DNA from: Rhytidiadelphus loreus
Lineage: Eukaryota > Streptophyta > Bryopsida > Hypnales > Hylocomiaceae
Direction of reading: 5' to 3'
Assembly: GCA_947034895.1 (NCBI GenBank)
Contig: OX344765.1
Coordinates: forward strand, 19,349,001 to 19,413,000
Length of the DNA stretch: 64,000 nt
The position numbers were made by a program, and so were the translations under genes. Positions within the stretch are counted from its first letter, which is position 1. Each line of letters starts with the position of its first letter. The notes under the pieces are model-generated. The model was not told where the DNA came from. It did not search any database and saw only the letters and a program-made list of their open reading frames with translations. Shown piece by piece: positions 33,381 to 60,394 of the stretch.

Positions 33381-33550
33381 ACCCAAAGGAGGCAGTCTAG
33401 TCTGCTGGGTTGCTGGTTCTACTAGTTGCTTGGTCTGTTGGGTTGCCAACCCATTGGATTGCCGGCTCTACTAGTTGCCAAATGAGGAATGCTGGTATGT
33501 GAGCAGAGAGCGGGAGCAGAAAAAAGTAAGCACAGAGCAGGGATTTTAGG
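33380..33550 (-). repeat. Candidate left end of a large element (GCTC-rich terminal repeat family C)
   Basis: Contains GGTATGTGAGCAGAGAGCGG, which on the opposite strand is closely similar to CCGCTCACATACTAGC at about 48.94 kb. Around it are repeated GGGTTGC and CTACTAGTTGC words. Minus orientation here faces the plus-oriented copy at 48.88-49.08 kb, as expected for the two ends of one element. Confidence 0.45.
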
Positions 33551-34159
33551 GAAAAAAATCCCTCCTTAGTCCTGCTACTATGAAAAAGGGTACCTAAAAC
33601 CGTGTAATCAATTTGTCTAAAAAAGTTTGAAATTGAATTTTTTAATCCAAATAGGACCTAAAGCCGTGGGATTTTAGAAGCTTAGACCTAATAGTTATAT
33701 AGTGTAAGCATTATACTTATTAATTTTCAGACATTTAAAGCCTTCTACAAGAGTAGGGAGCAGATTTTGGAGAGCCAAAAATAGTGTATTATAGTTTAAT
33801 TTATGAAATATGAGAGACCCTATTATCATGTACTTGTCATTAGGATTTAATTTTTATACTAAAAGAACATGCATAACATTGGATTTAAAAAAATTAGAAT
33901 AACTAAAAAAATGATGATTAATTGCTTTAGGAAAAGTAGAACATCTAATTCCTTGGTTTAGAGTCATTTAAATCTTACAATAGAAAAATGAAGTAGTTTC
34001 AAAGAGATTGAATGAAAAACTATAATAGTACAATACCATCAAATAAATGATATATATAGTTTTGGCATGATATTGCAATTGTGAAGATTATAGGTAGTTG
34101 TGAAACATTTACAAACAAATCTTTTCTTTGAGAAAATGCATAGAAGAAGAAATTAACTG

Positions 34160-35127
34160 TAAACCACCCAAGGCCTAATCATGTAAAAAAAAACTTTTTT
34201 TTTTAGTGTGATAAGTCTAAATGTTAGCAAGGTATGAAAATCTCAATTGTACAATCTTATAGTGTGCATATTGATGATAATGTAAATCAAATTTGGGGTG
34301 ATTTGACTGCACAAATTGGAAGATTATAATATTTTAGTATTGGAAAAAAATGGTGAAGTTTTCCTAAAAACACATTCGGACGTCAAATTTAAACCTTGAA
34401 CCTACTCAAATAAGGAAAAAAATGAACTACATAGTGATTCAAAACTAGAATATAATCACATTGGTGAAAGAAAATATCACTCACTTGACTCATCTTATCT
34501 CCAATATTAGTTCAAAATGTCAAAAAATAATAAAAAAAGAACACAATATCACATCTTTGGCTGAACCTCTCTCTAGTAAAATGCTTCTCAGTTTTCCATA
34601 ACTTCTTAGATTGTTATGAAATTCTTACCACAAAAAGAAGACTAGTATGTGCAACCATTCCAACAAAAATGATTGAAAACGGACATTGTATGAAGAAGAA
34701 ATAGGCGGCCAAAGTTCATTGTAACTAAAAAAATGACTGAATTTTAAACTTGAAATTGCTCCCAACCATTCAAAAGAACTTGGAGTGACATGAAAATTTT
34801 ACCACAATAACTAGATCTGAAGGCAAACCAAACACAACAAATTTTATTGAAAACGGACTTTGGAGGACAAAGATACAAGCCCTCAAAGTTGCAGCCTAAA
34901 AATGTCGAGTGCTGAATTGAAACTGCACCTGTGAACTTTGATTGGCTCTTACAAACTGAATACAAGTTCAATCAATCTGAAAATTTAACCACAAAAACTA
35001 GACTATTATGCGCAGCTTTTCCAACAAGTTTTACTGAATTTAAACATTGGATGCAAAAGTTATAGCACTTTAAATTAGATTGCTACATTGTGTGAGGACA
35101 CTATAATTGGTCCTCTTGGGTGGTTTA
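34160..35127. repeat. Repeat with 13-bp inverted termini, containing a 480-bp duplicated segment
   Basis: TAAACCACCCAAG (34160-34172) and its reverse complement (35115-35127) bound a ~970-bp segment immediately 3' of the ParB-methylase gene. Bases 34546-35025 are identical, as far as I can see by eye, to 38659-39138 inside intron 4 of that gene. Beyond the identical core, similarity drops on both sides. Confidence 0.65.
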
Positions 35128-35313
35128 GGGTTAAATACTCACAAAAAATAGAAGAAATAATACAATAAAATATGTATGTCACTTAGATATATCATTCAAA
35201 TTTGAGAGCATACAACTAATTGTGTGCATAATAAATATATTAAAGCAAATGCTATAAAACTATCGAGCAATTTTGAGCCACAATAGTGAAATATATTGAA
35301 AAATGAAAACCAC

Positions 35314-38300
35314 TCAAAGATCATCACTAGAAGTTGAACCTTCAATTTCAAATTCCTCTCCTTCACTTGCCTCTATATCCAAGAACTTCTTTACCTTTGG
35401 ATTGTATTGAAGTTTGCGTTGATTTGCTATTGGTGATGGGGCGTCAATGTATGCTTGAGCAATCCTTTCTGCATAAATTGGGAGATTGAAATTGAAAGGT
35501 GGACTTCGGTCATTTGCATCTTGCACTTGCTCTACTATAGCACTTCTACAAGACCAAAAAAAATTGGTCAAATATAATGTAGAAATCATTTAAGTATATA
35601 CTCATAAAGTAAAAAATGGTGATAAAACAAATGAATCACAACTTACGCACAAGAAGTGAATCGATTCCTCTTTGGCTTCTTTGTAGGTGGCTGATCAGAT
35701 GGTGGAGTAATGACTCTGCCCTTGCTTTTAGGAATAGAGGCTGTGATAGGGGCAAATGGAGCAATTATAGCCTTGAAAATGAGAGGATCATCTTCTAAAG
35801 CCAGGATGTGTCGTCCAGTCTCCAAACAAGCCTTGATGGATGAGCCTGATAGAAAACAAAAGATATATGAATAAATCATGAAAATTGAGTTCTAAAGAAT
35901 GATGAATAGAACTTAAATTTGTAGAAAAAAAAAATACCTGTTGCAGCTTTGCAATCAAAGACAATATCTCCAGGCTTGCAAAATTGTAGGATGAGATCTC
36001 GCATGAAGGGTAAGTTCTTCTCACGTGGACCTCTCCATGGAACTTTCTCATTCATAGAGAGGTTTTCAATGTCCGTGAGATTGAATAGAGCATCGTTTTT
36101 CTCTAAAGGCTCACCATCATAAGAAGAGTCACGATTTTCTTGGAATGAAAACCGTGAAGGAATCTCCCGTCGAATGAACAACTGAATCCCAAATTGAACA
36201 GACTGGAAACATTGAAAAGTTGAATATTAGAAAAAAAATTGTATTTATAAAACCATAAATTCAATGCAAGCATATAGAATTAAATTCAACCATTCCTTCA
36301 AATCCTTACAAATGCTCAAAAACTATTTTGCAAATTCTTTGATTACCGTCAGTGATGGATCGCGTGCAGATGCAAGATGTAGCTCATTGATCCCCCACCA
36401 ATCTTTGGCCAACTTCATGTCATATTGGTCGGCCAACTCATCAACTTCCTTTAGCAAATTGCGGTCATCGCAATGTATAAGTAGGAGGGCACCGTCATCA
36501 TGCAAATACATATCAGCCATCTCAAAGAGAGTCTCAACATAGTTCTCTGTGCGGGTGTTCCAATCTAGAATCGAAGTTGAAATGCCTGGAACAGGAAGGT
36601 TCTCTGGAATGTCTGCAATGATCAAATCAAGCCCTGTATGCTTGTACTTCTTGCAAAAGTTGGATGTGACAGTACGGTTGTGAGAAGCGCTAATCTGTAC
36701 ATTTCATAATTATGAAGTTAGAATTAAAACTTTCAAAACAATGGCATAGAAAGGAAAATGTTGGAATTAGGTTTAGAATACAATACCTTAGCTATAGTAT
36801 CATGCAACCTTATCCATCGAGGATTAGGGCCATTGGGATCTTGTAAACTATTCAAGAGAGTGATGAGAGAAGTGCACTCTACAAAGACATGAAGAGAGTG
36901 TTGAGGCTCTATCATAGAAGAACTAACTGAAGGAAACATGGACTGTTTCTTCTTGCGAATTTGGTTACCAATCCCATGATGAACATTGGATAAAGAGGAA
37001 TCTGGAGCAAAGGTTGCAACGCCGTCATCATGACCTTGGTCTGACATGGGGGTAGTCTCATGACTATCTGAAGGCATGGCTACAAGCTCATTTGCTTGAG
37101 ACTTCTCTCTTTCAGCTTCTTCTTTCTCTGCCTTCTCTTTTGCCACCCTCTCCATCTCTTCCTTCTCCGCCTTCTCTTTTGTCACCCTCTCCATCTCTTC
37201 CTTCTCCTTCTTTGTAAGTCGTTTTTTCTTCGGTGGCTTGTCTTGTGGTTGAGCTTCTTTGGGGTTTACTTCTTGTGCATCGTCAGGGTCAACAAGAGGA
37301 AGCTTTCCATCATCAAGAGTTGTCCTCTCAACAACCTCTGAATCGGGGGTGTAGTTCCGGTGACAATCAAGGTACCACCCTCCCGCTTCCAAATGTGTAG
37401 CTTTGAATTTCCTCAATTGCTCAAATGTAAACATGCAAAGATCGGAATCTTTTTGCAACCAAGAAAGGAAAAAGGGCGGTACAGCTTCAGCTGAAATTGC
37501 TTTCTTGGATAGTAAGACTCGCATGAAGTACCTAAAGTAGAGGTGAAAAATGTTATATAATTAAAAAGTAGTTCATGAAACATAAAGAATAAAAACAAAC
37601 AAAACATTTTCATCAACTTTTGGAAGCAATGGTAACAAATAGGGACCAAAATATAATAAACAATAGAAACTAAATAATGAAAGACCAAAGCAATTACACA
37701 AGTGTAGTAGTTTGGATGTATGGTATTGGTACCTGTATACAACGCGCCTCACTGCACTATCAGTTCCAGGGAACCCTTTGAATACAGATTTTTTGGTATA
37801 AAGCTTTTGATCTTTGTTTCCAAAGAATGGGATAAAAGCTTTGTCCCAAAGAAGAATGCGCCAACTCTCCACGTAATCAGAGGGTTTTCGAACACCTTGT
37901 ATAGTCCAATCTACAACAATGTTGTCGTCTTTGCAAATATTTGTAACCATCTTAACAATTGCCTCTTCCATCTGTTAAAATGAAATAGAGAATGTTTAAA
38001 ACAAAATAAAATGAAACCATGATAACTGTAAGAGACAAATTGATTGTTGGTCATAGTACAATACCTCAGCCCAAAATGATGCTTTGTTGATCCAAGAATC
38101 CCAAAAGAGATCCTTATCTTTGGACCCAGGAAAACGATAAGATTGTCGAATAGTCAATGAAGATGCATTCCACCAACGTAACCACCGTGCCTTGTGCTTT
38201 GCTTCAACGTTAGCAGTAGCAATTTTTTGAAGCTTCTCAATTGTCATTTCGGGAACTGGATTCTCGCTGAAATGACGGTCAATCTGAGCATACAAGAACA

Positions 38301-41300
38301 TTTTTGTTAGATTGAAAGATAACAATCTCAAGATAAATTTAGAAATAGAAACTTTGACTAGGGTAGGAATGAATTTATACCTCTTTCAAAAAATCGTTTC
38401 TATTCTTTGGATTTGCCACCGCAAAGTATTTGTCAAAGTCTTTGGCATGAATGGCCTTGATGAACTTATCTGAGGCACTCTTCATTGCCTCCCAAAAGCC
38501 TGGAGCAGTCCTTTCTTGGAGCGGTGTCCGCAATGTGTACTCTCGAGCTGCTTCATCGGCAGCCACTGCAATCTCCCGCTACAATTGAAAAAAAGAATGT
38601 CAAAGGAATTACAGATTTCATGTACAAAATGTCAAAAAACAATGAAAAAAGGATCACCATATCACATCTTTGGCTGAACCTCTCTCTAGTAAAATGCTTC
38701 TCAGTTTTCCATAACTTCTTAGATTGTTATGAAATTCTTACCACAAAAAGAAGACTAGTATGTGCAACCATTCCAACAAAAATGATTGAAAACGGACATT
38801 GTATGAAGAAGAAATAGGCGGCCAAAGTTCATTGTAACTAAAAAAATGACTGAATTTTAAACTTGAAATTGCTCCCAACCATTCAAAAGAACTTGGAGTG
38901 ACATGAAAATTTTACCACAATAACTAGATCTGAAGGCAAACCAAACACAACAAATTTTATTGAAAACGGACTTTGGAGGACAAAGATACAAGCCCTCAAA
39001 GTTGCAGCCTAAAAATGTCGAGTGCTGAATTGAAACTGCACCTGTGAACTTTGATTGGCTCTTACAAACTGAATACAAGTTCAATCAATCTGAAAATTTA
39101 ACCACAAAAACTAGACTATTATGCGCAGCTTTTCCAACTAGTTTTATTAAATTTGGAAATTACATGCAAAAGTTACATGACTTTGAATTGGACTGCCAAA
39201 CTATGTGAGGATACTTTTGGTCCCATTCGACAATAAAAGGTTTTGCAAGAAAAGCAAATTGAAAAGATGGTTGTACCTTATACCAGAAGGAGAAGAAGAC
39301 ATTGACTGTCAAAGAAAACCAACTTGGTCTCATCGCCTTCACTTTCTCACAGTATTGGTATTCGTCGGGTGAGATAAGGTCTTTGAAATCAGCAAGGGGT
39401 AGAACTCCAAAATTTCGAATTCGACGCAGTCGAGCTGGAATTGTGCTCTTCACATGATCATGTTCCGTAGACCTATACAATACATTTTTATGAGAATGAA
39501 ATCAAAGTCAATGTCAATGTCAATGTCAATGTCAATAAATTGATATTTAGATGCAATACGTATATATTAAAAGAAAACAACAAACTTACCTATTGACATC
39601 GCTCATTGCATTTAGCAAGTTTGCCACTTGACCTCTTGGATCCAATATAATGCAATGGACTCGTTTGTGCCAGCCGAATTCTCCATCATGATAGTTGGTG
39701 ATGTGTCGCATCCATGCGGAGACACGATGATTCCCATCCCATACATAAAACATCTTACCTCTCAATTGGACAAGGTCGACATCTGCCATCAATTCCTTCT
39801 CAAATTCCTCATTGACACGTTGCCAATGAGGACTCCACCTTGCAATTTCTTCCTCAGTCACATCCATAATTTTCTCAAAATTGTTGTACAGTGAAACGTA
39901 TAAAACCCGATCACCATCTCGATAGCCGTTCATGAACTCGCTCTCCAATCTTTGAACATCCATTTCTCCAACTGGTCTAACCTCGTGCATTACAATCATT
40001 CGACAAAGAGGGATCTCAAGGCGTGACTTCGTAATAGGTTGGATGCGTAATGTGTTGATGAGTCCTGTAGTGTCCACCTTGAGTTGTTTGCGGTGGAGGT
40101 GCTCACTCTCCAACACACTCGTTACATTAGGTGGAAATTTGTGCCTTGGCTCATCATCATCTTCAAGATCAATAGATGCAACCTTCAAAATAATAACACA
40201 TGAAATTGAATTAGAAAAATTGAAGATAGGGTTGTGAAGGGAGAGAGTGATGTGTATGGAAGCTCTTTCTTTCAAAAACTGCACATACACAAAGTAATGG
40301 AAATTACATGAACTTCAGAAGTAGATATTTCATTTACCTCAGTGATTGGTGGTGGAAAACTTTCTGTAAGCACAATTGGGGATATTCCATCTCTTCTCGT
40401 TTGTCTTGCAACAATCCTCTCAGCACTGTCCTCCTCATCATATATAATTTCAGTTGTCTTCGTCCATCTGATTAGTTCAAATCATTCCAAAAAACATGAC
40501 GTGAGTGCTGAATTATTTGTAATGAAGACGAAACAAAATTTGGCTCACAACTATAACATACAATACAAATATTGTCATAATAGTAAAGACTAGGATTCCT
40601 CGTGAACAAGGATTCACCCTAGCCCTTTTTTTATTGAAGATCTAAACCATATCATATGACCAAAAACAAATTCAGCAAGTATATTCATTGACAAGTAAAC
40701 CCTGAAAGAGCTCAAAGTTCATTCTAACCCTAAACAAGAAAAGGTATTAGGAAGTTATGAAATGACATCTATATTTAAAATTCAGCCTAAGTAGTCTAGT
40801 TTGTGAACACCCTCGTGAACGAGGACTACATTAGCTACCGAAATTCTAAACCAAAATATTAGCATTGGTGCAAAGAAGGTGTATAAATCCTCCTTTAAAA
40901 GGACTTTGTTTAAAACGATACAACAATAATAGCATTTTCAATCAGATTCGAAACATCAATAGGTTTTTCCTTAAAAAGGACTTTTTGAAATGGATATGTG
41001 TAATACAGCCTACAAAATACAACATTTTTAAGTACACTAGGCGCAGCTTTTAGTATCCTCGTCAACGAGGACTCCCGAAAATGGTTGTATTCAATTCACC
41101 GCTCACAACATTTTTTACTACAGTAAGCGCAATTTTTAGTATCCTCGTCAACGAGGACACTCGAAAATGGTTGAATCCAACTCAAGAATCACTACATTTT
41201 CAACTATACTAGGCGCAGTTATTGGTATCCTCGTCAACGAGGACACTCGAAAATGGTTGAATCCAACTCAAGAATCACTACATTTTCAACTATACTAGGC

Positions 41301-41556
41301 GCAGTTATTGGTATCCTCGTCAACGAGGACTCCCCGAAATGATTTAGAATAAGGCGCAGTTTTTGGCATCCTCGTCAACGAGGACTCTCGAAATCACACC
41401 GCCACTTCTACTGTGATATTCAGCATTGTTCCTAAACTCCTAAACCAAAATTATGAAGGTAAAGACATGATTGTGAACCTCAATCTCTGGCTGAACATCT
41501 TCTAGCAATTGGTGCGAAGCCATTGCCGAACGCGCCGCAAACTCTCCTTCCTCCAT
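35314..41556 (-). CDS. ParB-like domain / N4-N6 DNA methylase-like fusion protein, 12 exons
   Basis: Predicted exons (5' to 3'): 41556-41479, 40457-40338, 40182-39590, 39472-39277, 38578-38381, 38283-38065, 37971-37733, 37531-36787, 36694-36347, 36202-35938, 35845-35647, 35545-35314. All introns are GT-AG and the phases match throughout, giving 1143 residues. The least certain join is exon 1 to 2. Residues ~124-250 resemble a ParB/sulfiredoxin fold; YVWDGNHRVSAW (DGNHR at 215-219) corresponds to the ParB G-x-R-R/H nucleotide-binding motif. Residues ~540-730 are a Lys/Glu-rich linker with basic clusters such as PPKKKRLTKKEKEE that could act as nuclear signals. Residues ~797-1050 follow the beta-class methylase order. 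The motif IV position is LIIADIPEN instead of DPPY/SPPY, then PGDIVFDCKAATGSS replaces the usual D-P-F-x-G-x-G, then GRHILALEDDPLIF. ParB plus methylase fusions are known in bacteria and phages; a eukaryotic host copy is unusual. Altered motifs suggest lost or changed catalysis. Confidence 0.75.
38659..39138. repeat. 480-bp duplicate inside intron 4 of the ParB-methylase gene
   Basis: Same orientation as, and apparently identical to, 34546-35025, about 4.1 kb away on the other side of the gene's 3' end. The identical block is bordered by diverged but still alignable sequence. This pattern fits recent gene conversion within an older duplication. Confidence 0.85.
39507..39536. repeat. Short (GTCAAT)n tandem repeat
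   Basis: Five copies of GTCAAT in intron 3 of the ParB-methylase gene. A minor simple repeat. Confidence 0.9.
40597..41384. repeat. Tandem 86-bp array of palindromes TCCTCGTCAACGAGGA
   Basis: The 16-bp inverted repeat TCCTCGT-CA-ACGAGGA occurs at 41056, 41142, 41228 and 41314 (spaced exactly 86 bp) and again at 41369 (55 bp, shortened unit). Variants are CCTCGTGAACGAGG at 40811 and an imperfect copy at 40597. The sequence between palindromes is also repeated, with GAAAATGGTTG and AGGCGCAG words; two middle units look identical. In the gene model this lies in intron 1 of the ParB-methylase gene, close to its 5' end. The core contains GTTGAC on one strand, so a WRKY-type W-box reading is an alternative to a site for the element's own proteins. 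Confidence 0.9.
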
Positions 41557-41598
41557 CTAGAACATGCGGCTACCACCAATCGTGAGCAAAAACAACAC

Positions 41599-41637
41599 CT
41601 CGTCGACGAGCACTCACCCGACGCACCCAAACCCTAA
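41599..41637 (-). promoter_or_regulatory. Putative promoter/leader elements of the ParB-methylase gene
   Basis: The palindrome CTCGTCGACGAG (41599-41610), with the same CTCGTnnACGAG core as the intron array, sits about 45 bases upstream of the ATG at 41556. A plant telo-box AAACCCTAA (41629-41637, plus strand) lies just beyond. Telo-boxes are common near plant transcription starts, which favours transcription starting here. A long poly-A run (about 41680-41695 on plus) is further upstream. Confidence 0.4.
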
Positions 41638-42265
41638 CCTCAACCGGTTCGCAAGACTAAGGAAGAAGAAGAAAAAGGAAAAAAAAAAAAAAAAGAGTAC
41701 AAAATCGGTAGATGCAGGTCAAGAGAATCTTTACAATAAGAATTCTGATTTTGAAGATTTAGGGTCAAAATTTTCAGATGACCTAGATTATAACCTTACA
41801 ATTAACCTCAATTTTTTTCAGAATTTTTGGACTCACGGCTGATTTTATAAAAATCCTCAAAGTTGACAAAAAAGACGGAGGCCAAGATTTGCTCAAAAAA
41901 TCTTCAGATTCTGAAGATTTCAGAGAAGATTCCAATATGCTGAATTCGTTTTTGGGCCATAAAACATTCAATTAGGGTCCGTTTTTTACATGCTATATAC
42001 TGTTGGAATCGTCTTCTCAAACTGCATGATTAAGTTTAGGATGTCAAATTCAGATCTAACAAAAAACTATTCATATTCATTTAACGCACACTCTTCTAAT
42101 TCTGTGGTCCATTCTTCTACAATTCTAAGCCCATACGAATATAGTTTTGCAACCAATTAGAGAATGAGTACATAACCTTTGTATTTCCAAAAAAATACAT
42201 CTACATCTTATTTAAATTATTGACTGCAAATCATTAAATGGCATATGGTATACTTATGAACATAC

Positions 42266-42725
42266 CAAGTCTTCTCTATCCTGGTTAGGCTCTTCATTTG
42301 TATCTTCATTGTCATCCTCGCTTTCATCATCTTCTTTGCCATCTTGGTTGTCCTCGCTCTCATCGTCTTCTTTGCCATCTTGGTTGTCCTCGCTCTCATC
42401 GTCTTCTTCGCCATCTTGGTTGCCCTCGTCTCTTTCAACCACAGACAATGGTTCTTCAATAATCTTAACGAGACATAATGAACGGTCACCAACAACGTCG
42501 TCCACTTCTTGGTCACCAAAATCAAGTGCCTTCGACGTTTCACCATAGCTATGTATACCTCTGTTTACAATTTTTTCCCCTCTCATCTTAGCTTTTAATC
42601 TTTCTTTGGGAGTTGTGTAATACAGTTTGCGTCTTCTTCTCTTCTTCTTTATCAACCTACAAGTTGCAACCTGAGACTTAAGTACTTTGATTTCTTCAAG
42701 CATTTGATTTACTACACATACATCC
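42266..42725 (-). other. Putative exon encoding basic then acidic repeat protein segment
   Basis: An open frame bounded by plausible splice sites (TTTAG/GGATG acceptor, GACTTG/GTATGT donor). It encodes a helix-like start (MLEEIKVLKSQVATCRL), a basic cluster KKKRRRRK, and about three copies of a 12-residue acidic repeat, NQDGKEDDESED. The repeat is a 36-bp tandem in DNA. The donor phase (0) would join in frame with the ATG exon at 41556, so this could be an upstream exon of the ParB-methylase gene. It could also be a separate unit, since promoter-like signals lie between them. No family recognised. Confidence 0.35.
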
Positions 42726-42739
42726 CTAAATAGCAAGCA

Positions 42740-43858
42740 TTACAATAGCACCCTCTCTATCACCTCCAAACTATTTATCATTCTCCCTACTAACTTTAAA
42801 AACAGATCAATCAAGTATTGAGTCTACAAATACCTTGCTTAGCCATTTAAAACCTCAAATAAGTGACAACTTAGGTGCACTACCTTCACCCCTCACCCCT
42901 CACAGATCTTTAGTACTCTACAATCTCCCTTTGCAACAAGAATACATAACACATATCCAATGCCCAAGCTAATGCAACACAAACTCAAACTTCTTACAGA
43001 ACAATAGAAATAATACAATGCAGTTCTACAACTCTAATAAAGAAGACAAGCAAGAACCACTGACAAGAAGAGTTTAACATCTCTGGCAACGGTAAATGAC
43101 AATTGTACTACTCAATACCTGATTCAAATTATGAAATCTAACAGATCTATTGTTGTAAATGCAATTTGTTGTATGAGTACTCTCCCTACCTTCTACTATA
43201 ACATAAACCTACAAGTTCAGGATTTGGCGCTTCTAGTACTAGTATACCTGAATATCAACATAAATAGCAATTTTTCAAATAAATAAATGCCTATACTTTC
43301 TACTGTTTCTTGTCCTTAATTCATACAAATGATGTCTGCATCAACCGCTGCTTGCTTTAAATGCTGGCTACTTCAAACAGAGATTGTGACATGTACCAGA
43401 TTTTATTAGGTTTCTTATTCCTAACTCATATTAATTATTAAATTCATTAGCAATAAATATGCTTATTTTTGTATTTCATTAATTACTAATCTAGCTATCT
43501 TATTTACATTTCTCTTCATTTTAACAAATATGGTACTAATATATTTTATTGTCTGTTATGTCATCATTATGTGTTTTTAGTTTGCTTGCCTTTCTTAATG
43601 AGGTTATTTGAAGATGTTAATATTAATGATACTTCTTACACTCTTTGTTAGTTTTCATCATTGTTATGCTTTTCAAACCATTTCCTAATCATCATTCACT
43701 AAAGATGTAGTAAAAATACTTTATTCATTCTTCATCATACCTGCTCACTATATTTTTGTCTCGAACACAATATGCTTTTCTTTTTCAAAGCAGTTTTCTT
43801 CAGAGCAGTATGTACTAAAACTAGAATGATGTTTTCATGAAACTTCAATTTCTGAGCG
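42740..43858. other. Non-coding interval upstream of the transposase-like gene
   Basis: AT-rich DNA with no recognised coding region. Together with 41611-42265 it forms the divergent intergenic space between the minus-strand ParB-methylase gene and the plus-strand transposase-like gene, so promoters are expected here. Confidence 0.45.
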
Positions 43859-46800
43859 ATGGTAGACTTTGCAGAGATGGTTGTTGTGAGAGCGAATGGT
43901 GAAGGAGTTCCAATAATGTTTCTAGTGGATGAAGATGGATTTGCTGTTGTATCCGCATTTCGGTTAAATCTCAGGTTCCAATTAAACGAGGACTCACTTC
44001 ACATTGATGAAGAGGTATTTGATGAGCGTCGTGGAGATCTTACTCATACAATTGATCAAGTCTCTACATCTGATGGTTCTGGTAGAATGTGGCATCTCAA
44101 GTCTGGTAAATTTAGGGTCTATGGATTACGAGAATCCATCATGGCACCTTCCTCGAGTGTTTTTACACCTCATCAATCATCTACATCTTCTCTTCAAACA
44201 CCTTTAGCCTGGCCTTTAGCATCGCAAGTCAAAGTAGAGCTTGTTGTGAATGATGTCACCATTCTTAGTGACGACTCTGACGACAATTCTCCTGAGCAAT
44301 TGCAAAGCATAACGACTTCTTGTTTGGAGTCAACTTTGCTGAGATCAAGTATTTTACAGGGCTCAAATACTTTGTTGAGCTCAAGTACTTTGCCGAGCTC
44401 AAGTACTTTCCCAAATTCGAGCACCTTGCCAAGCTTGAATACTTTACAAACCTCCGGTACATTGCCGAGCTTCGGTACATTGCCGAGCTTCAGTACTTTA
44501 CCTAGCTCAAGTACTTTACCAACCTCTACTGAACCGTTATCTGCCAACCACTCTAGTGGTAGCAAATCCATTACATCTGTAATTGATTGTTTAAGAAATT
44601 TGCGTACATTGAAGGGTTGTAGAAATGTCTTGAAAAAATTGATTATGACTCTATTACTATTCATAGAGTAAGCGTGTTACCTCCAATTTTTAATGGTGAT
44701 GTCATTTTTGAGTTTCCACCACTCACTACCTCCACTGGTCCATCTCAAGCTAAACAAATGCTTGGGATGGATAAACGGTATGATGGCCATGTCTGGTCAA
44801 AAACTATTACAACAAATATAACAAATCCCATGGGATTATCATTCCGCACATCTTCGTGCATAGGGCATCTTCAGTGCATTAATTCAGGCTGTGATTTTCT
44901 TAGTCGCATTCATCGAATCAAGCCTATCAATGAATTGGAATGGGAAGGATTCACGCCGTCATTGTTGGAAGTGGGAAGTACACATCCTCGGGGCTCAACG
45001 CTTATTTGTAAAATGTGCAAGCAACCTCTGTCGTGTATTGCTACATGTTCTGCAAAAGTATATTACGTATTTGGAAAATACAACTTTACTCGTGCATTTG
45101 TACACCTTGGCATTCATGAACATCCTGTCAAAGATGGTGAGCTCAGAGATTTGAAGGAGAAAACTCGTATTCTTATTGGAGAACAGATGGAGAGAACACC
45201 AGTTGCAACAAACTCTTCAATTGTGTTAGAGGCTACAAAAGAGCTTGTGGGAGAACTATTGTTGCGTCCAGATGGCGTTCCGTTGAAGACCCTCAACATT
45301 GATGAACTGCTTCCAGTTCTTGACAAGTGCAAGTACTTCAGCTCTCCAAACATTCGAAATGAGGTAACTTCGTTCAAATACTTAAGGAGGTTTGGAGTTA
45401 TGGATAGCATTACGAAATTGAGGGGGACAAGCACTTGGGCATTTGTTCAAGAGAATAAATTTCCAGGACAAGGGTCGGATATGGATAAAGTTTTTGTATT
45501 CAAAATGTCAGAAGTTGGACCTGGTAGTAGAGTGGACTTGGTCAAGCGAATGCAACCTGGCGGAGATCTTCAAGCTGCTTGGTTGATGTTTGATCATGTC
45601 AAACGTGTTAAAGGTTGGACTACTATGGCATGTCATGTTTATGACTCCATGTATTGTCGCGTTATGACTATTACTGTTTGCGATATGCAATCGGAAGATT
45701 GCGCTGCTCAAATTGTGTTTGGGAAAAACTTAAATTCAGTTCTTGCAAGACATGGTGTATCCCACCCTAAATTCAAGGGATTCATGGCTGACACCGCTCA
45801 AGCCAATTGGAATGCTGTAAGGACAATTTATGGGTCAGGCGACACTAGTGTTCCAATGGAAAATCAAGAAAGGACTTGCCTCTTCTATTGGACTCAATCA
45901 ATGGAAAAACACACAAAAGCTGATATTCGATCCAATTTACAAGATCAACATCGTTTGCTATGCAAACAATACAAGAATGTTGTTTCTTCTGAAGAATCAG
46001 AAACTCGATATCTTGCCATCAAAGCTTGGTGGTTGTCATCTGGTGCCACAACTGAAGAAGGACTTCATCGATTAGAACTTTGGCTATCGTTTTGGCATTT
46101 TCGTTACTGCCAATGGGGAGGATTTCAGCAACTTGTAAGTATCTACTCTTCATCAATTGTACTTCAAACATCTATTTGTTTCAATAATAAAAAATTTCAA
46201 AATTTAATTTTATAATCATTACTAATCAATTTGACAATGTCAAATTGTAAATGGATGTATAGTATATATATATTCATTGTTGTTTTTATAATTGCTATAA
46301 ATGATTCATCAGAGAAAGTATAGATGATTAGTATTCACAGTATTATTTATCAAGCATTTTGAATTAAATTAGAGACCAAGACCACTCGTCAACGAGTGGT
46401 CTGAGACTTCAGTTATTCTTTATTTTATTTGTGCAACCCCTAAACTAAATTGAAGCATATCTAGTCACTGCATTGGTAGCATTGCCATAACTTAACTTCC
46501 TCCCCTAGTTCTTTTATAAAAAACCACATGAACTGGAGAGTAAGGTTATTTTCTTTATTATTGATGATGGAAAGTTTATGGTTTTTCTTGTTTTATTTTA
46601 TAATTTCCTTCCTACCTAGATTATTAGTCATACTATGAGTATTAATAGCAATAATATTTTACTTACAACACATTTAAATTTTTTTATAACAAAGTTTGTA
46701 TTTTTGCTTTTTCATTTCAGGATCTTAGTACATCTAAGCTTGCAGAAATGCCTTCCTGCAATCTAGCTGAAACTGTCCATAACAAGTGGCTTCAACAATC

Positions 46801-48184
46801 TGAAAATCGTGGAAACGATTTGTACATTGCCACTGTTGACGACTATGTAAGAGCCTTTATGCAAATGGTCAAGTATTATCAATTCCTTAAAGGCAATGAG
46901 GCTGGAACAGGACCAAGAAAGGAAGAATTACTACTTCGAGTTGCTCAACGATCAGCTCAAAGATCAGGAAATCCAAAGGTGCTTACCGAAGCTATGTCCA
47001 ATATTCCAGGAGTAGAGGAGTTTCTTAATAGAGAGCCTCGTCTTGAAGGTGAGGAAGTGTTTGGATCGCAGAAACGCAAACCAGATATGCCATTGGGTTG
47101 TGAATATGATTCACACCGCCCAGACAAAGTGAATTTTTCTCATCCACATATGAGGTCAAAGAGAGCTTCTACAAGCACTCAAAACTTGAATCCTATTGTT
47201 GAAGACATTTTTCCAAGTGTAGACAGAGAAATTGAAGATCCAATGGCAGCTGAGGACAATTCCAGGGAAGGTTTTACTCACAGAATTCCTCATGTGTTAG
47301 CAATTCAAGAGAGCAACTGTGACGAGTTTCAGTGGCACATTGCAAGGCTTCCCAAAACCTCAGCAAAGGCTTGTTTTGCCCTCCAAGCTATTTCAAAGAA
47401 GAAGTGTACAACAAAGATTGTTCAAAACAACAAGGCCAAAGCAGCACCAACGTACACAGGTATGATGACCAATTACAAAAAAAATCGAAATGAACAAATG
47501 CAATTTTTCTTTTGCAATGACGATATTGAACGTTGTGTGAAGGGGACTAGTCGGAAGTGGGTATTGTCAAGACCTAATGTTCCTGCCATATGGCCTGTCA
47601 AAATGGGTACCAATTTGTCAAAGCAAGAAGTTTTGGCATTTGAAACAACTGGCTTTCAACTTCCACAAAGTGAAGTTATTTCACCTCGAAGACTGTTTGG
47701 TAGAGAAGCCGGGTTAGATTTGGTCTCCTCATATCCTATTCCAGGTTTATCGGATGAGCATCCCCAAATTCGGTTAGGGAAAAGTATTCGTCGGAATCTA
47801 AAGGCACCAACAGTAAAACACGCAAACAATTGCGCATCTGCAATTACACTAAAAGCACGCATTCGTCGAGTAACAATGGTTCCTCACCCTGGATTTGGTT
47901 GCATTGTTTGCCTTGATTCTGGATTAGAGCCAAAGATTGAGCAATATATGCTTACCATTTCATCATTTCCAGAGTGCTCGTGTCCATATTTCAAAGAAAT
48001 GACTATAAAGTCATTAGGCAAGCGAGGACAGTGGGCAAACTGTAAGCATCTCTATTTTATTTTCACTGTCATTTGCAACCTTCAGTCAACAATAGATGCT
48101 TTCATTCATGCCCCAAGTTTAAGTTTCAATGAAGTCAAGAAGATCCTTCTCAGTGGGATATTGAATCATTTAGTTTTAGATTAG
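43859..48184 (+). CDS. MULE-type transposase-like protein with RNase H fold and SWIM zinc finger
   Basis: Exons: 43859-44578 (or to ~44622), 44623-46134, 46721-48184; the last junction (CAACTT/GTAAGT to TTTCAG/GAT) is clear and in frame. About 1230 residues. The N-terminal exon has an unrecognised domain and a Ser/Thr repeat of SSTLPSS type. The middle exon holds the likely catalytic core: VYDSMYCRVMTITVCDMQSED (first Asp at 45643), FMADTAQANWNAV (second Asp at 45790) and CLFYWTQSMEKHTK, the arrangement seen in MULE-like DDE transposases. KLAEMPSCNLAETVHNKW follows in exon 3. A SWIM finger closes it: CSC at 47974-47982 and CKH at 48041-48049. Exons 1 and 2 are in different frames. Joining them needs either a very short 44-nt intron (GTAATTG to GTTGTAG) or marks a frameshift, so the gene may be broken. 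Its role would be to move the surrounding element. Confidence 0.7.
46380..46401. repeat. Palindrome GACCACTCGT-CA-ACGAGTGGTC
   Basis: Perfect inverted repeat with 10-bp arms around CA, in the large intron (46135-46720) of the transposase-like gene. It shares the CTCGTCAACGAG core with the 86-bp array but has different outer bases. Confidence 0.9.
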
Positions 48185-48870
48185 ATTTGTTATTGCAAAA
48201 CAGTATCAACTTTTGTACCTTGTGTGCTCATCAATGAATATGTAGTGAGACTAAAAGGGCCACTACTTCCATTTCACTTTTGCTTGCACTTCTGGCATTT
48301 AGACTACTGAATGATTTCTCTTATCCTCATTTTACCTATTTTTTGCATTATAACTTATAAAATTTTATCAAAAATATCATGTGTTTGTGCCTTTTTTTAA
48401 CCATTATAGTATATTTAATTTAATTTTTTTGTATTAAAAACAAGAACAGAAAACCTTTATTTTTTGGTTCAGGATTAGAATTCTCATTTCTTCTTTGCAC
48501 AAAGTCTATATAGTCATCAATTCTAAAAATGTCCACGATAATAGGTCTATTTGAGATTAATTATATGGCATAAAAAATAAAAATAAACTCTAAACTTTGA
48601 CAGTCTTAAAACAATTTACTTTCACGGTCATAGGCATCGTAACAATAAAATTATAATTTTGAATGGTTTAAAGTGGAATGTTATTTGATTTTGACCTTCT
48701 TTCATTCACTTCTAATATCCATTGTCCTTCATTATTGCATTCAGTTCCATCCATTTTTTCCATCTATTTTCATCCGAAATTCATCTATTTTCATTCATTT
48801 TTCATCTACTTTCATCCATTTTTTCCATCTATTTTCATCCATTTTCATCCAACTTTATGTTTTTTCATCC
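48185..48870. repeat. 3' flank and degenerate CATCC/TTTTCAT tandem repeats
   Basis: After the transposase stop comes AT-rich DNA. From about 48710 to 48870 a degenerate tandem of TTTTCATCCAT-type words follows; frames crossing it are Phe/Ser/His-rich artefacts. Similar CATCC words accompany the terminal repeats near 51.3 and 61.2 kb. Confidence 0.6.
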
Positions 48871-49080
48871 TAAAACAATGCTCACCGCTCACAACTTGTC
48901 GCTCACCGCTCGTTGCTCCCCGCTCCCCGCTCACATACTAGCGACGTTGGTTGCCAAGTTGTTTGGTGGCCCAACTCCGCTCAATCGCTCGGCTATTGGT
49001 CACTTGACTTTGCTAGATTGCATGGCTATGCTAGAGTGGCTTGGCTATTGGGTGGCCCAAAAAATCCAAATAAAATAGTA
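48870..49080 (+). repeat. Candidate right end of the large element (GCTC-rich terminal repeat family C)
   Basis: Tandem GCTCACCGCTC-type words lead into CCGCTCACATACTAGCGACG and then TTGGTTGCCAAG. The opposite strand resembles 33380-33550, and relatives lie at 51.06, 51.89, 60.4 and 61.33 kb. Orientation here is plus, inverted relative to the 33.4-kb copy. Confidence 0.5.
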
Positions 49081-51024: not shown

Positions 51025-51960
51025 TGAGTCTTAATTAAGAGGTCTTTTTTAGCTAACTAACAACGACGCTAGAGTGTGAGTAGGGAGCAACGAGCGTTGA
51101 GCATTGAGCGATGAGCGATTAGATTTGAGCATTCATTGCGAGGATTTTTACTAAAAATAGACATGTCAGAGTAATAAATAGTATTGTCAGACCCCAAAAT
51201 AATAATGTCTGAAATCCCAAATAGAAAAAATTGCAAAAAAAATTGCAATTTTTTTATTTAAAATAATCAATGTTGCAATCAAATATTGCATGAGAGAACA
51301 TCCATTCATCCATGTACACATGAACTTCATCCATGTCATCCATTCATCATCTATCCAAGAAAGGCGTGATTTATTATTATAGTAGAAGTCCTAGAAAATG
51401 AAATGTAATTTTTTGAATATTTATTTTCAAAAATAAAAATTTACAAAAATCATTAAGATTTGCATTGTTGACCACAAAACTTTGTTAACTATTTTGAGGC
51501 TGGTTTAATGCTCCTCGGAACTGAATAGCATCTTCAAGGTTCATTTGGAGAAATGTAACAACTAATCCTATATTGTAGTTTGATTGTGGTTTAGGGGTCC
51601 TTGAAACCAAAAAATATTGTTAAGGTTCATCTGGAAAAATGTAACAATCAATTCTACAATGGTTCATTAATTTCTTTTTGTGATTTCAAAACCTTTCATC
51701 GAAGAAAATTAACTTTATAGACCAAATTTTTTTTTCACCACCTTCTCATGAGCCTCAGGCTTCCCTCCATATATTGTGTTTAGCTTTTTATTTTCTTACG
51801 ATGAGCCTCTTTGGAACCTAACTTTTATTGAAGATGTTGGTTTATTAATCATTATGAGAATATGTACATCTTTGGACAATGACACTAGAGTAGGGAACAA
51901 TAAGCAATGAGTGTTGAACGACAAGCGTTTCAATTTGAGCACTCAATAAGATTTTTGTTA
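51025..51960 (-). repeat. Left inverted end of a second large region (family C, two motif copies)
   Basis: From outside inward: CTTAATTAAGAGG, TAGCTAACTAAC, then GACGCTAGAGTGTGAGTAGG and GAGCGTTGAGCATTGAGCG. A second, weaker GAGTAGGGAACAATAAGCAATGAG-type copy lies at about 51885. Both are in minus orientation. The same blocks in the same order, inverted, occur at 60.4-61.45 kb. Confidence 0.5.
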
Positions 51961-54450
51961 ATTAAAAATAGACATGTTAGAGTTATAAATAGTGATGTCA
52001 AATCCAAAAATAATAATGTCAAAATTACTAAAATATAAATTATTAAAAATAGATTTTAAGAAAATCAATTTGTTGTTAAAATACCTTTAATTAAGGTAGT
52101 TAATTTAGCATTCAAATGTTGCAGGTAAGTCCAAGAGTAATAGTCTAGCTTCTCCTGCAACAAAAAATGTACCACCATGGGGATGATGTGTGAATTAATT
52201 TCATACATATCATCCATTCATCATCCATCTAGGAAGGGCCTTATTTACACATTGCAATACATGCTCTAGAATCCTATGGTTCTCTCCATCCATTTTTTTA
52301 TGACTCCCATGTACATAGAATGCACAAACCTTTCTACCAAGTGTACATTCATTGTATTGTTCTTTAATCCTTGAAGTCCTATTGTCCCTATGGGGGAAAA
52401 AAAAGATTTCAAGTAGGTTTTTTATGAGTTCAATCTTTGGTGAATTTTTTTGAAACTTTCTTATAAGGTAGAAAAACTTATTAGCTTTTTGTGAATATGA
52501 TTTTTATTTCAATTGGATTCTAAAATACATATTTTTTTTAATTTCTTGGATGAATGCAATAGAAATGATAGTTTTGAGTGTTTTTTGATAGAAATTGGGC
52601 TTGGGACTTTGAAAGTTAAAAATAATCATGTATTCTTCATTTTAATTTAAATAATAAAAGACCAACTACAGAAAATCATGTCAATGAAAATTCTTATCAT
52701 GTCAATGAAAAGCCCTCACAAAGTTATAAAAAAAATTCCAAGCACTTTGTGAATCAATGAATAGAAGAAAAACAACTTGTTCTTGGATTGAATACTATGG
52801 AATTTTAAATTATTTTGAATTTTTTTGGCAAAAGTATTCAAGGCCTCTAAAGACACTTTAGGGTCCTTAGGAACATCGGGACACTTTTCAAGTAATTGTA
52901 GAGATATAATCTATAGTATCTTCCCTAAAACTTCCATTGAATTAGGCCCTAATTTTTTTTCTAATTTTTATTATAGAGGTTGCAAATATTTGATTGATAA
53001 AAGAAAATGTGGTGGAGAATGGATTTTATTCAATCCCTAAAGGTTGGAAGTTGTTTTGGAAGTGAAAAAGTTCAAAACTACCAATTTTTGATGCATTGTC
53101 AAAAGTCAAAACCTGAAACATTTTTTTCAATTTCAACCATTCAAAAGTGTACTATATAGGTAAGGCAATGTGTGAAAAAGATTTTAGGCCATTTAATTGC
53201 ATGTATTAAAAGATTATAACATTTGAAGTGAGATCAAAGTTTTTTTGAGATTAATTCTTGCAAAACAAGCTTTGTAGACTTTGAGCCTTCTTGGAGTACA
53301 ATCTTTTTTCTATTCAAAAATGATTATTTTCACCATTTATAAATATATGATGTTAGATTCACTTATGAAAAATTTCAAAAGAAAATATAGAGTCTAGCTT
53401 ACTCTAAATCACCCATCATTGCAAGGAGGTTAAGTGAATTGGCAATATTTAAACTAGTCATTTTTTAATGATTTCTTGTACAATTAGAATTTTTTTAAAT
53501 TTGAAATCCAATTAGTGAAAAGTTAGAGACAAAAATTTGGAATATGTGGGAAAAATTTCAAGAACTTTGACATGATAGATTGCAAGGTAAGAGGGCTTGA
53601 AGTTGAAAAAAATATTTTTTCTTGAAATTGCCATAATATAGCTAATAAAGTTTGAGTCCTCTTACAATGTGATTTTAGGACTAAAATTTTAGGATTTTTT
53701 TGATAGTTGTATGCCATACTTTATTGGTTACATACATGCCAAATTTCAAAAGTTGATGGGTTTTTTAGGAAAAGATGCCCTCAAAATGCCCAAATTGCCT
53801 AGGCTACAATAAAAGCTCAAGGTAGCATAACTTTTGATCTAAGCACCTCATTAGAAAAAAAATTATATTACCATTGTCCACACATTTGTCTTTTTCTATG
53901 TATTCTTTTGATGTTTACAATTTTACAAATGATTTGAGTCATCCTTGAGGTGCCAAATACTACTTCCACCTTGAACTAATTAGTCTAGTAAGGCCTATTC
54001 CAATTGACCATTATTTAACCAACTCTAACACATGTGTCTTGACTATGAATTGTTAGATGGATATCATTAGGGGAAGAATAGGGTCGGAATAGGGCTACTA
54101 GATCTAAACTACTACTAAACAGTAGATGGCTCCTCAAATATAACGAGTCAATTTTTGGTGCAAAAAGACCTTCCCTCTATTAATTTGAGGAGTTTATAGA
54201 ATTGAAATTTTGGTTTTAAATTCAATTTTTTTTATGCAAGAGATGGCTTCTCAAATGGGCGGAGACATTTCTTGGTGCCAAAGACTTTCTTCCTGTTAAT
54301 TTTGTGGATTATAAGAACTGTGATTTAAATTCTTTTTTCAGATATTTAAAAACTAAAAAAAAAATCATCATACGATTCTTTGGATTTAAAAAGACAATTT
54401 TTGGTGCTAAAGGATCTTTTTCTATTTATAGAAAGGATTATTTGAAGATC
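51961..54450. other. AT-rich interior, no gene seen
   Basis: No coding region supported. Short frames lack motifs. Parts resemble other AT-rich stretches in the window, but no boundaries could be set. Confidence 0.45.
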
Positions 54451-54459
54451 TTTAATTCA

Positions 54460-57400
54460 TTGTGATTTGTAAGGGTCCCTTCAAGCCAATGAAAGGCTCT
54501 CTAGAACCCTCCTAAGTGTATCAAATCCAACGAACAATCCTTGTATCTATAGAGACCTTTCTTGTTGGCAAAAGACTCTCCCAAAAAAGGCTATTTGAAA
54601 TCCAAAGTCTCTTCCAAAGAAGGCTCTTTGGATTCCGAGGAGCCTTCCTTTGGGTTCTAAGGGCTCATCCAATTAAGGCTTTAAAGAACTCCAATAGACT
54701 CCTCAAATCCAAAAGCCTTTTTTGGGTGCCAAAGGGCTCTTCCAAGGAAGGCCCCTTAGATCTCAAGGAAGGCTTTTTAGATTATGTAGATCCCTCCTTT
54801 GGTTCCCAAGGCTCTTCCAATGAAGACTCTAAGGCACCCCTAAAGGCTCCTCGAATTCAAGGAGCCTTTCCTTGGTGTTAAAGGATTCTTCTAAAGAATG
54901 CTACTTAGAATCCAAGGAACTCTCTTTGGATTTCCAAGAACCCATTTTTAGTGCCTAAAGGCTCTCTCAATAAGGAACTCCAAAAGGCTCTTTGAATTTG
55001 AGGAGACTTTCTTTAGTGCCAAGGGCTCCTTCAAGGAAGGCTCTTTAGAACCGAAGGAAGGCTCCTCAAATTTTGAAGAGCCTTCCTTCCGTTCCTAAGG
55101 GCTCTCCAATAATTTCTCTAAAGGCCCTATAAGACTTCTTGAATTTGAGGAGCCTTTTTTTAGTGCCAAAGGGTTCTTGCAAGGGAGGCTCCTCAAAACC
55201 CAAGGAAGGCTCCTCGGTTCTGAGGAGCCTTCTTTCGGTTTCCAAAAGGCTCTCTCAATGAAGTATTTCAAGAACAAAAAGGCTCCTTGGTTCCGAGGAG
55301 CGTATTTTTAGTGCCAAAGAGTTCTTGCAAGGGAGGCTCCTCAAAAACCAAGGGAGGCTCTTTAGAACCCAAAGAAGGCTCCTCGGTTCTGAGGAGCCAA
55401 TTTTTGGTGCCAAAGGGTTCTTGCAAGGGAGACTCTTTGGAAACCAAGGAAGGCTCCTCATAACCTAAGGAAGGCTCTTCCATTCTGAGGAGTCTTCTTT
55501 CGGTTCCAAAGGCTCCTTCAATGAAGGCTTTTAAGGACAAAAAAGGCTCCTCAAATTCAAGGAGACTATTTTTGGTGCCAAGGTATTATTGCAACGAAGC
55601 ATTTGTAGAAAAATAGTGACCACCATAACAAAAAATCAACAAAAAAGTGTTATGTCGTTTGTATCCTCGGTTGCGTTTTTGGACAGTACTTAATCAAAAA
55701 GTGTTGTCTATTTTGTTATGGTGGTCAAATGAAAAAACTAAAATAATAATTCGTTTATAAATTTGCTCAAAAAAGAGCCATTACATGGCAAACCAAAAAT
55801 CAGCCTTGTAGAGAATGCTACATAGGCAAAAACTGCCATGCTAACAAAAGAATTAAATTAACTTTTGAACTTTAATTAGAAAGAAGAAGACAAGCTCAAT
55901 TTAACTTGATGATTGAAGAGAGGTAACTTTAGTGATAGAAGAGAGGAGAAGGCAAGCTCTTTATACAAATGGGGTGGTAGAAGGTAGAACAAACTATATG
56001 GGATATGTGAATTAAGACTATGAGTGGTTCACATATCCCACATGGTTTGTTCTACCTTCTACCACCCCATTTGTATAAAGAGCTTGTCAAAATGAATAAG
56101 ATAGAGTTAACTTTTTTGTTGATTTGAACGTTGTATTATCTTAATCAACAAAAATTTAGTGACTATTTTGTTAACTTGTACCTAATCAACAAAAAATTGA
56201 TAAAATGGTCAATATAGTATGCCAATTAACAAAAAATTGTTTCTTCACTTGGACACCATGTTCTAGTAGTGAAGGCTCCTCGGAACCCAAGGAAGCCTCC
56301 TCGATTCCGAGGAGCCTATTTTTGGAACAAAGGATTCTTGCAAGGGAGGCTCCTCAGAACCCAAAGATTCCCAAAGGCTCTTTCAATGAAGGCTTTCAAG
56401 GACAAAAAAGGCTCCTCGGTTCCGAGGAGCCTATTTTTGGTGCCAAAGGATTCTTGTAAGGGAGGCTCTTCGATTCCGAGGAACCTTCTCTTGATTCCCA
56501 AAGGCTCTTTCAATAAAGGTTTTCAAGAACAAAAAAGGCTCCTAAAATTTGAGGAGCCTATTTTTGGTGTCAATGACTTCTTGTAAAGGAGGCTCTTTAG
56601 TTTCAAAAAGTCTATTTTTGGTGCCAAAGAGTTCTTGCAAGGGAGGCTCTTCGGAACCCAAGGAAGGCTCCTTGGTTCCCAAAGGCTCTTTCAATAAAGG
56701 CTTTTAAGGACAAAAAAGGCTCTTCGAATTTGAGGAGCCTATTTTTGGTGTCAAAGACTTTTTGTAAAGGAGGCTTCTTGATTTTGAAGAACCTATTTTT
56801 GGTGCCAAAAAGTTCTTGCAAGGAGGCTCCTTGGAACTCAAGGAGCCTCTTTAGAACTCAAGGAAGGCTCCTTGGTTCCGAGGAGCCTTCTCTCAATTTC
56901 CAAAGGCTCCTTGGATTTCGAGGAGCCCTACTTTGGTTCCCATGGGCTCTCCCAATGAAGGCTCTAAAGGACCCCTAAAGGCTCCTTGGATCGGAGGAGG
57001 CTTTCCTTATTGCCATTTGGCTCTTCCATAGAAGGCTCTTTGAAACATGAGGACGACGGCTCCTCGGATTCCAAGAAGCCCTTTCTTGTTTCCTAAGAGT
57101 TATTTCAATAGAGGTTGTAAGGGACTCTTAATGGCTCCATGGGTCGGAGGAGCCTTTCTTTGGTGCCAAAGACTTTTTAAGTTTTTTTTTCCATTTGTCA
57201 TTAGATAGATTGTTGATGCCAAAAAAGGTTCTAGACTTCAAATTTGAGAAGTCATTTCTTAATAACATTGATTCTCCCTTAATTTATTGAGTATATCATT
57301 AGATAGATTTTTGGTGCTAGAAGAAGCTCCTCGGATCCAAAAAGTAATTTTGTGGTCCCAATGGACTCTACGCCTTTTAGGGGGGGCATTTGAATGTTTT

Positions 57401-60390: not shown

Positions 60391-60394
60391 CTCA

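Follow-up and report, generated by a model that had tools for sequence, protein, structure and literature searches.

The window analysed here, a 64,000-nucleotide stretch of the genome of the moss Rhytidiadelphus loreus (GenBank assembly GCA_947034895.1, contig OX344765.1, positions 19,349,001 to 19,413,000 of the forward strand), contains a DNA transposon of 15,466 bp (33484-48949) that carries a predicted ParB-methylase gene on the minus strand (41556-35314) together with a SWIM-type gene. It is proposed, with about an even chance of being right, that the ParB-methylase gene is the accessory gene of this two-gene element and that its product would bind the element's own repeat array as a DNA-bound factor, not as a methylase.

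The ends of the element were found by comparison with sister copies, that is, near-identical copies elsewhere in the genome; inverted repeats of at least 24 nt (25 of 48 pairs) did not show them. The ends and the second gene, given with its open reading frames (ORFs), are as follows.

33474..33483, no strand: left target-site duplication, 10 bp, GTTGCCAAAT, 9 of 10 positions identical to the right copy
33484..33504, plus strand: left terminal inverted repeat, 14 of 21 nt matching the right end; two sister copies start at the same base
48929..48949, minus strand: right terminal inverted repeat, from comparison with sister copies
48950..48959, no strand: right target-site duplication, GTTGCCAAGT, 9 of 10 positions identical to GTTGCCAAAT
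43856..48184, plus strand: second gene, transposase-like, with SWIM-type CxC...CxH (ORFs 43856-44671, 44623-46215 and 46655-48184)

In two near-identical copies the match to the window starts at 33484 and runs on to about 48.9 kb, with the same end points and across both genes, which bears out the claim of an earlier, sequence-only reading of this DNA that the gene and its SWIM-type neighbour belong to a mobile element. Target duplications identical at 10 of 10 positions flank a copy on contig C2 (ACTATGTACC), a copy on C4 (GTACAGTACC) and a diverged copy, family A (GTGTAGTGTA); a 10-bp duplication is thus present in all four ParB-bearing elements of which both ends were seen. Mutator-like elements make target duplications of about 9-11 bp, a range that includes this length, and MuDR has a second gene, mudrB. 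The transposase-like gene gave no Pfam match when searched as two window ORFs or as four pieces, and the SWIM-type CxC...CKH is common to the genes of the window and of family A (judged by eye).

The genome (407 Mb; 489 contigs, of which five measure 51-94 Mb) holds at least 150 matches to the ParB exon; a first look gave 1354 candidates, and the best 150 were scored and all match. These 150 comprise the window's own exon, 29 copies that are 95-98% identical to it, one of them partial, and 120 that are 38-47% identical. A methylase exon lies 2.5-5.5 kb downstream in at least 25 of the 30 near-identical ParB copies, window included, among the matches listed. The same architecture is found in two diverged families, A and B (28-53% protein identity), in which the ParB, middle and methylase parts lie on one strand and the transposase-like gene is divergent. 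A single host gene is ruled out by the 30 near-identical dispersed copies, the element ends and the neutral decay described next. For the same reasons, and given the target duplications that flank the element, it is hardly credible that the gene is domesticated, fixed and useful to the plant, even though a frame open over 12 exons would suit such a gene.

The decay was assessed in 28 full-length near-identical ParB exons (the window's included), in which the distinct changes comprise 22 synonymous, 59 replacement and 9 stop (25.2, 58.7 and 6.1 expected), and 10 of the 28 exons contain a stop codon. When 29 sister copies (L095-L123) were aligned to window 38089-41682 (3.6 kb), C>T changes amounted to 4.6% at CG and 5.7% at CHG versus 2.0% at CHH, with A>G at 0.7%; the CG and CHG excess reads as the signature of past plant DNA methylation and of silenced copies. 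Because near-identical copies decay neutrally and bear this signature, the openness of the window copy reflects youth and is not proof of function. The argument that an open frame speaks against decay therefore falls away, since the window copy is one of 30 near-identical dispersed copies that change neutrally.

Rebuilding of the predicted gene gave 12 exons with GT-AG borders and agreeing phases, joining into 1143 codons and a stop, which reproduces the earlier exon count and borders. The predicted exons are listed with what supports them; P0039 is a protein from another source.

41479..41556, minus strand: exon 1 (proposed; 5' end uncertain), rebuilt gene model
40338..40457, minus strand: exon 2, rebuilt gene model; open in 29 of 29 sister copies
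39590..40182, minus strand: exon 3, ParB/sulfiredoxin-like domain with the box WDGNHR
39277..39472, minus strand: exon 4, gene model; P0039 read-through from exon 3; families A and B
38381..38578, minus strand: exon 5 (middle region), gene model; families A and B
38065..38283, minus strand: exon 6 (middle region), gene model; families A and B
37733..37971, minus strand: exon 7 (middle region), gene model; families A and B
36787..37531, minus strand: exon 8, with the charged linker, gene model; similar stretch in P0007-P0009
36347..36694, minus strand: exon 9, methylase-like domain, motif IV position DIPENLPVP, gene model; alignment of relatives
35938..36202, minus strand: exon 10, methylase-like domain, WRGPREK and motif I position DCKAATG, gene model
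35647..35845, minus strand: exon 11, end of the methylase-like domain (GRHILALEDDP), PF01555 match
35314..35545, minus strand: exon 12 and stop, gene model; counterpart in family B

The GT and AG borders of exons 2-5 are kept in 24-29 of the 29 sister copies. In P0039 the exon 3 sequence continues directly into the exon 4 sequence, in P0007-P0009 a stretch resembling the exon 8 linker shares one frame with the methylase domain, and several relatives' alignments break off at the end of exon 10, echoing the predicted border. The 5' end is the weak point of the model, because the phase between exons 1 and 2 hangs on the choice of acceptor and no counterpart of exon 1 was found in families A and B. 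The phase works only with the acceptor just before 40457 (ACGAAG/ACA), whose AG is kept in all 29 aligned sister copies; a rival AG 10 bases upstream, giving another phase, is present in 25 of 29. Exon 1 itself retains its ATG in 25 and its donor GT in 27 of the 29 sister copies. A further ORF (42739-42254) lies upstream of it and could be an alternative 5' exon or a chance frame.

42254..42739, minus strand: charged ORF of 161 aa with a GTATGT donor-like end, upstream of exon 1 and inside the element (ORF list)

The last codon of exon 3 (39589-39591) is AGG in the window copy and TGG in 28 of 29 sister copies, so the window copy is not perfect.

The assignment of the ParB-like part rests on structure, as Pfam ParB profiles give no match. 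Its structure model has the ParB N-domain/sulfiredoxin fold, and the G-x-x-R box is present as EGNHR in 14, DGNHR in 11 and KGNHR in 2 of 39 aligned rows, the remaining 12 being varied, shortened or gapped at this position. No Pfam ParB N-domain match was obtained for the exon 3 part at E up to 10 or for the 39 alignment members at E up to 5; one of the 39 matches a ParB C-terminal family at E 0.12, and the best match to a PHROG ParB-like profile reaches only E 0.058. Searches of viral contigs and prokaryote genome contigs gave no relative of the ParB part. The order of a ParB-like domain followed by a methylase, as originally read, is borne out by the fold model and by the PF01555 match described below.

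The methylase-like part is matched by PF01555 (N6_N4_Mtase) over residues 843-1022 with 30.3 bits, above the cut-off of 26.7. The predicted structure also matches the fold of the beta-class amino-methylases, with motif IV preceding motif I; the model has a pLDDT of 43 and is without the end of the domain, and its fold matches support the relationship without proving it. The motif IV position reads DIPENLPVP in the window, DMPE in family A and DMPD in family B, and DIPEN is found in all 13 relatives covering the position, nine of which form one clade (88-93% identity), which leaves about five independent lineages. In every family read, an acid (Glu or Asp) thus occupies the place of the aromatic in the (D/S/N)-x-P-aromatic motif. 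For comparison, among the best 80 of 419 viral-contig methylases (four unreadable at motif IV), the fourth residue is aromatic in 76 of the 76 readable ones (73 Tyr and 3 Phe), and Ile or Leu stands at the second place in 12 of 76. Because Ile or Leu at the second place also occurs in viral methylases, the acid at the fourth place is the real departure. The methylase of a Solobacterium phage (L002 1447-2214) has DIPY, a motif that combines the aromatic with Ile at the second place.

FxGxG is motif I for S-adenosylmethionine in beta-class amino-methylases. At this position the window has DCKAATG, and DCTTATG and DCTASTG are found elsewhere; one clade has mostly NAGVG, in which G-x-G is largely kept. 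Strand 2 still ends in its acid, and one motif I glycine is retained. Methylation of DNA by the protein is doubtful on these sequence grounds, and DNA binding looks likelier because the motif IV aromatic has given way to an acid in every family read and is kept in all readable viral methylases; we infer that the methylase fold is retained for a purpose other than methyl transfer. An active methylase with an unusual motif IV (D-I/M-P-E/D), which would mark the palindromes described below with N4-methylcytosine or N6-methyladenine and by self-modification protect or flag the element, would agree with the invariance of DIPEN, with the retained acid and glycine, and with palindromes that fit a methylase target. 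We consider it improbable in view of the uniformly aromatic viral motif, of a motif I in the window family that is without the usual F and first G, and of the bdelloid enzyme N4CMT, in which replacement of the catalytic Ser and Tyr of SPPY by Ala is reported to abolish activity (PMC8885841). The earlier guess of a DNA-recognition or modification protein consequently fares better in its first half than in its second, against which the motif IV acid speaks.

No relative of the methylase part was found in viral contigs, the one of these two contig sets searched for it. The fusion order had been called familiar from bacteria and phages, for which no confirmation was obtained: four of five phage hits are of 246-255 aa and too short, and the fifth, of 347 aa, was unscanned for ParB. 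A search with the whole-length protein gave no match and exon-sized pieces did find relatives, perhaps because the relatives are stored as exon-sized ORFs. In the same assembly PF01555 also matches seven contigs (C295, C426, C309, C318, C174, C245 and C62; L086-L093) that are not plant copies; they have open methylase frames and high contig numbers and look bacterial, within a plant assembly.

The third component of the proposal is the repeat array 5' of the ParB exon.

40598..41611, no strand: eight palindromes CCTCGTNNACGAGG (0-1 mismatch), partly in an 86-bp tandem repeat at 41022-41339

The eight CCTCGTNNACGAGG palindromes of the window compare with 0.01 expected, and 2-5 exact ones are kept in the 29 sister copies. 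Stretches of 2.5 kb extending upstream from the ParB exon were examined in 19 cases (16 diverged copies hand-picked from 120, plus A, B and the window, with five pairs sharing more than 400 nt); 18 of them contain a tandem array with a period of 60-450 and a score of 150 or more, often palindromic, versus 2 of 16 controls taken 1 Mb away. The core CCTCGN4CGA, a motif picked after the arrays had been inspected, occurs in 10 of the 19 stretches and none of the 16 controls, with a simulated expectation of at most 0.18 each; in two whole elements, the window's included, it is confined to the array. The elements possess motif-bearing tandem arrays in their noncoding parts, as do those bound by the VANC proteins discussed below, and the array sequence varies between families.

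Genome-wide counts of CCTCGGCGCCGAYGG offer an independent look, only one of the 12 listed clusters (C1:39234604) being also in the sample. CCTCGGCGCCGAYGG occurs 514 times in the genome, its reversed control not at all, and 97 of 100 listed sites (all on C1 or in the initial 0.3 Mb of C2), in 10 of the 12 listed clusters, are found no more than 5 kb 5' of a ParB exon on the list; such zones make up 0.16% of C1. CCTCGTCAACGAGG occurs 199 times (control, once); by a tally made by eye, 57 of 100 listed sites lie 5' of near-identical copies, and all 17 such copies in the listed part are represented. CCTCGTCAACGAGG is also found at a spacing of about 115 bp at L164, C1:5254076, C1:16430883, C2:828197, C2:26887467 and C2:52204801, with no listed ParB exon near; beside the array at C2:26.887 Mb, a stretch is 81% identical to window 41679-42021.

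Two other readings of the arrays have to be weighed. Selectively neutral minisatellites in a GC-rich noncoding stretch, with the protein having an unrelated function, would fit the variation of array sequence by family and the frequency of tandem repeats in the window (32 rows), and the mean G+C content is indeed higher in the upstream stretches than in the controls. Such neutrality is difficult to reconcile with the excess of arrays over controls, with a core so far above its simulated expectation, or with the palindromic array of a second element in the window that is without the two genes, and we give it little weight. Alternatively, the array might be a site of the transposase-like protein or part of a promoter, the ParB-methylase protein being a helper without sequence-specific binding. 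The position of the array between two divergent genes favours this explanation, as does the place at C2:26.887 Mb, where the same palindrome, at about 115-bp spacing, adjoins a transposase-like gene; in family A, however, the distance from the sites to the ParB exon is about 0.4-1.7 kb, compared with about 3.5 kb or more to the point where the match to the transposase-like gene starts, CCTCGN4CGA is not at the ends of the two whole elements, and most of the listed CCTCGGCGCCGAYGG clusters are 5' of a listed ParB exon. We regard it as a real but lesser possibility.

The second element (51062-61395, 10.3 kb) is of the same kind as the first, with like ends and a 10-bp duplication, GCTAACTAAC/GCTAACTAAT, identical at 9 of 10 positions; an 11-nt match further out was passed over, as it is not at the ends. 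Compared with the two element proteins and 52 relatives, it gave nothing below E 0.05; it has a palindromic minisatellite of its own (54.6-57.2 kb), which includes CCTCGGTTCCGAGG. Because this relative keeps an array without a ParB, methylase or transposase-like match, the array would seem to have a role in cis. Within the first element, two direct repeats were also noted.

34510..35102, plus strand: direct repeat, 3' of the gene, 95.8% identical to 38622-39215
38622..39215, plus strand: direct repeat, inside intron 4, about 594 bp

The copy at C2:22.01 Mb has one direct repeat only, and the intervening stretch, including exons 5-12, is gone.

We propose that the protein, in which a domain of ParB/sulfiredoxin fold precedes a beta-class amino-methylase fold with an acid in place of the catalytic aromatic, would bind the repeat array of its own element family, and that the bound protein would act there as a sequence-specific factor instead of a methylase. 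This factor would most likely keep the divergent promoters of the element active against host DNA methylation, as VANC does in VANDAL; such an anti-silencing role is proposed by analogy and with lower confidence than array binding accompanied by methylase loss. A more elaborate scheme, a ParB-parS-like device in a eukaryotic transposon, would involve loading at the array palindromes, spreading as a nucleotide-gated clamp, a dead methylase domain holding DNA, the keeping off of host methylation and silencing, and co-diversification of array and protein across many families; taken as a whole it appears rather unlikely.

Several observations weigh against array binding by a DNA-bound factor, in addition to the overlap among the 19 stretches, the after-the-fact choice of the core motif and the G+C difference from controls. 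For the domains, Foldseek with the ParB model gave no hit reaching E 0.001, a general Pfam scan, the only search made for one, gave no helix-turn-helix family, and of the 15 members of the methylase alignment only two, one being the window's, match PF01555 on their own (E up to 5). For the arrays, L135 is the one stretch among the 19 without a tandem array, that of L138 is AT-rich, those of L146 and L147 are far upstream, and a clear palindrome is missing from some. The remaining 43 of the 100 CCTCGTCAACGAGG sites on the list have no listed ParB exon nearby and are mostly at the spacing of about 115 bp; at C2:26.887 Mb, the one such place opened, the array is 5' of a transposase-like gene (its far side falls outside the stretch viewed), and the transposase-like protein could be what binds it. 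For the gene, near-identical copies exhibit no purifying selection on the ParB exon, in both copy A and copy B a stop codon interrupts a methylase exon, and constraint would have to be read solely from conservation between families.

Among known systems, the closest working parallel is that of the VANC proteins of Arabidopsis VANDAL elements, which, as described in PMC5735166 and PMC10398659, bind short motifs in tandem repeats in the noncoding parts of their own elements, VANC introns included, and remove silencing marks. In both cases a DNA transposon encodes an accessory protein, noncoding tandem repeats contain a short motif specific to the family, and the copies show host methylation. The moss protein differs in its ParB-like and methylase-like domains, its element has terminal inverted repeats and 10-bp duplications, and binding and anti-silencing would be properties deduced here. 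A Pfam scan of the 1143-aa protein (E up to 10) gave four families, none of them VANC-type; the protein is unrelated and may work alike, but it is not a VANC.

The bacterial parABS system and its ParB N-terminal (CTPase) domain share with the moss protein the ParB/sulfiredoxin fold, the (D/E)GNHR box and clustered palindromes near the gene, whereas the moss protein is without a Pfam ParB N-domain match, is fused to a methylase-like domain and is hosted by a plant transposon. The beta-class N6/N4 methylases (CcrM and phage enzymes; PF01555) resemble it in the profile match above cut-off, the motif order from IV to I and the fold match, and differ in that the catalytic aromatic is Glu or Asp in the moss families and motif I is degenerate in most. 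METTL14 is presumably a comparable case of a methylase fold with catalytic loss. The Mutator-like elements share the 10-bp target duplication, the SWIM-type motif and the presence of two genes, and the moss element differs from them in having no Pfam transposase match and short, imperfect inverted ends. Bdelloid N4CMT (PMC8885841) is likewise a bacterial-type amino-methylase domain in a eukaryote, fused to another domain; it is a host gene with SPPY and proven activity, whereas the moss gene is transposon-borne and has a DIPE-type motif.

Among the open-licence papers listed there was no description of a ParB-methylase fusion or of ParB in plant transposons, a weak negative. A transposon with a sequence-specific accessory factor is a known kind, with component parts that are unfamiliar here. 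If the proposal is true, the methylase fold has been kept between families after the catalytic aromatic was lost, and the recognisable candidate binding-site arrays make the idea of array binding directly testable. Transposons that counter host silencing by sequence-specific proteins are known from the Arabidopsis VANDALs (PMC5735166), and the moss element would then be another anti-silencing system, built from unrelated parts of the bacterial partition and modification type.

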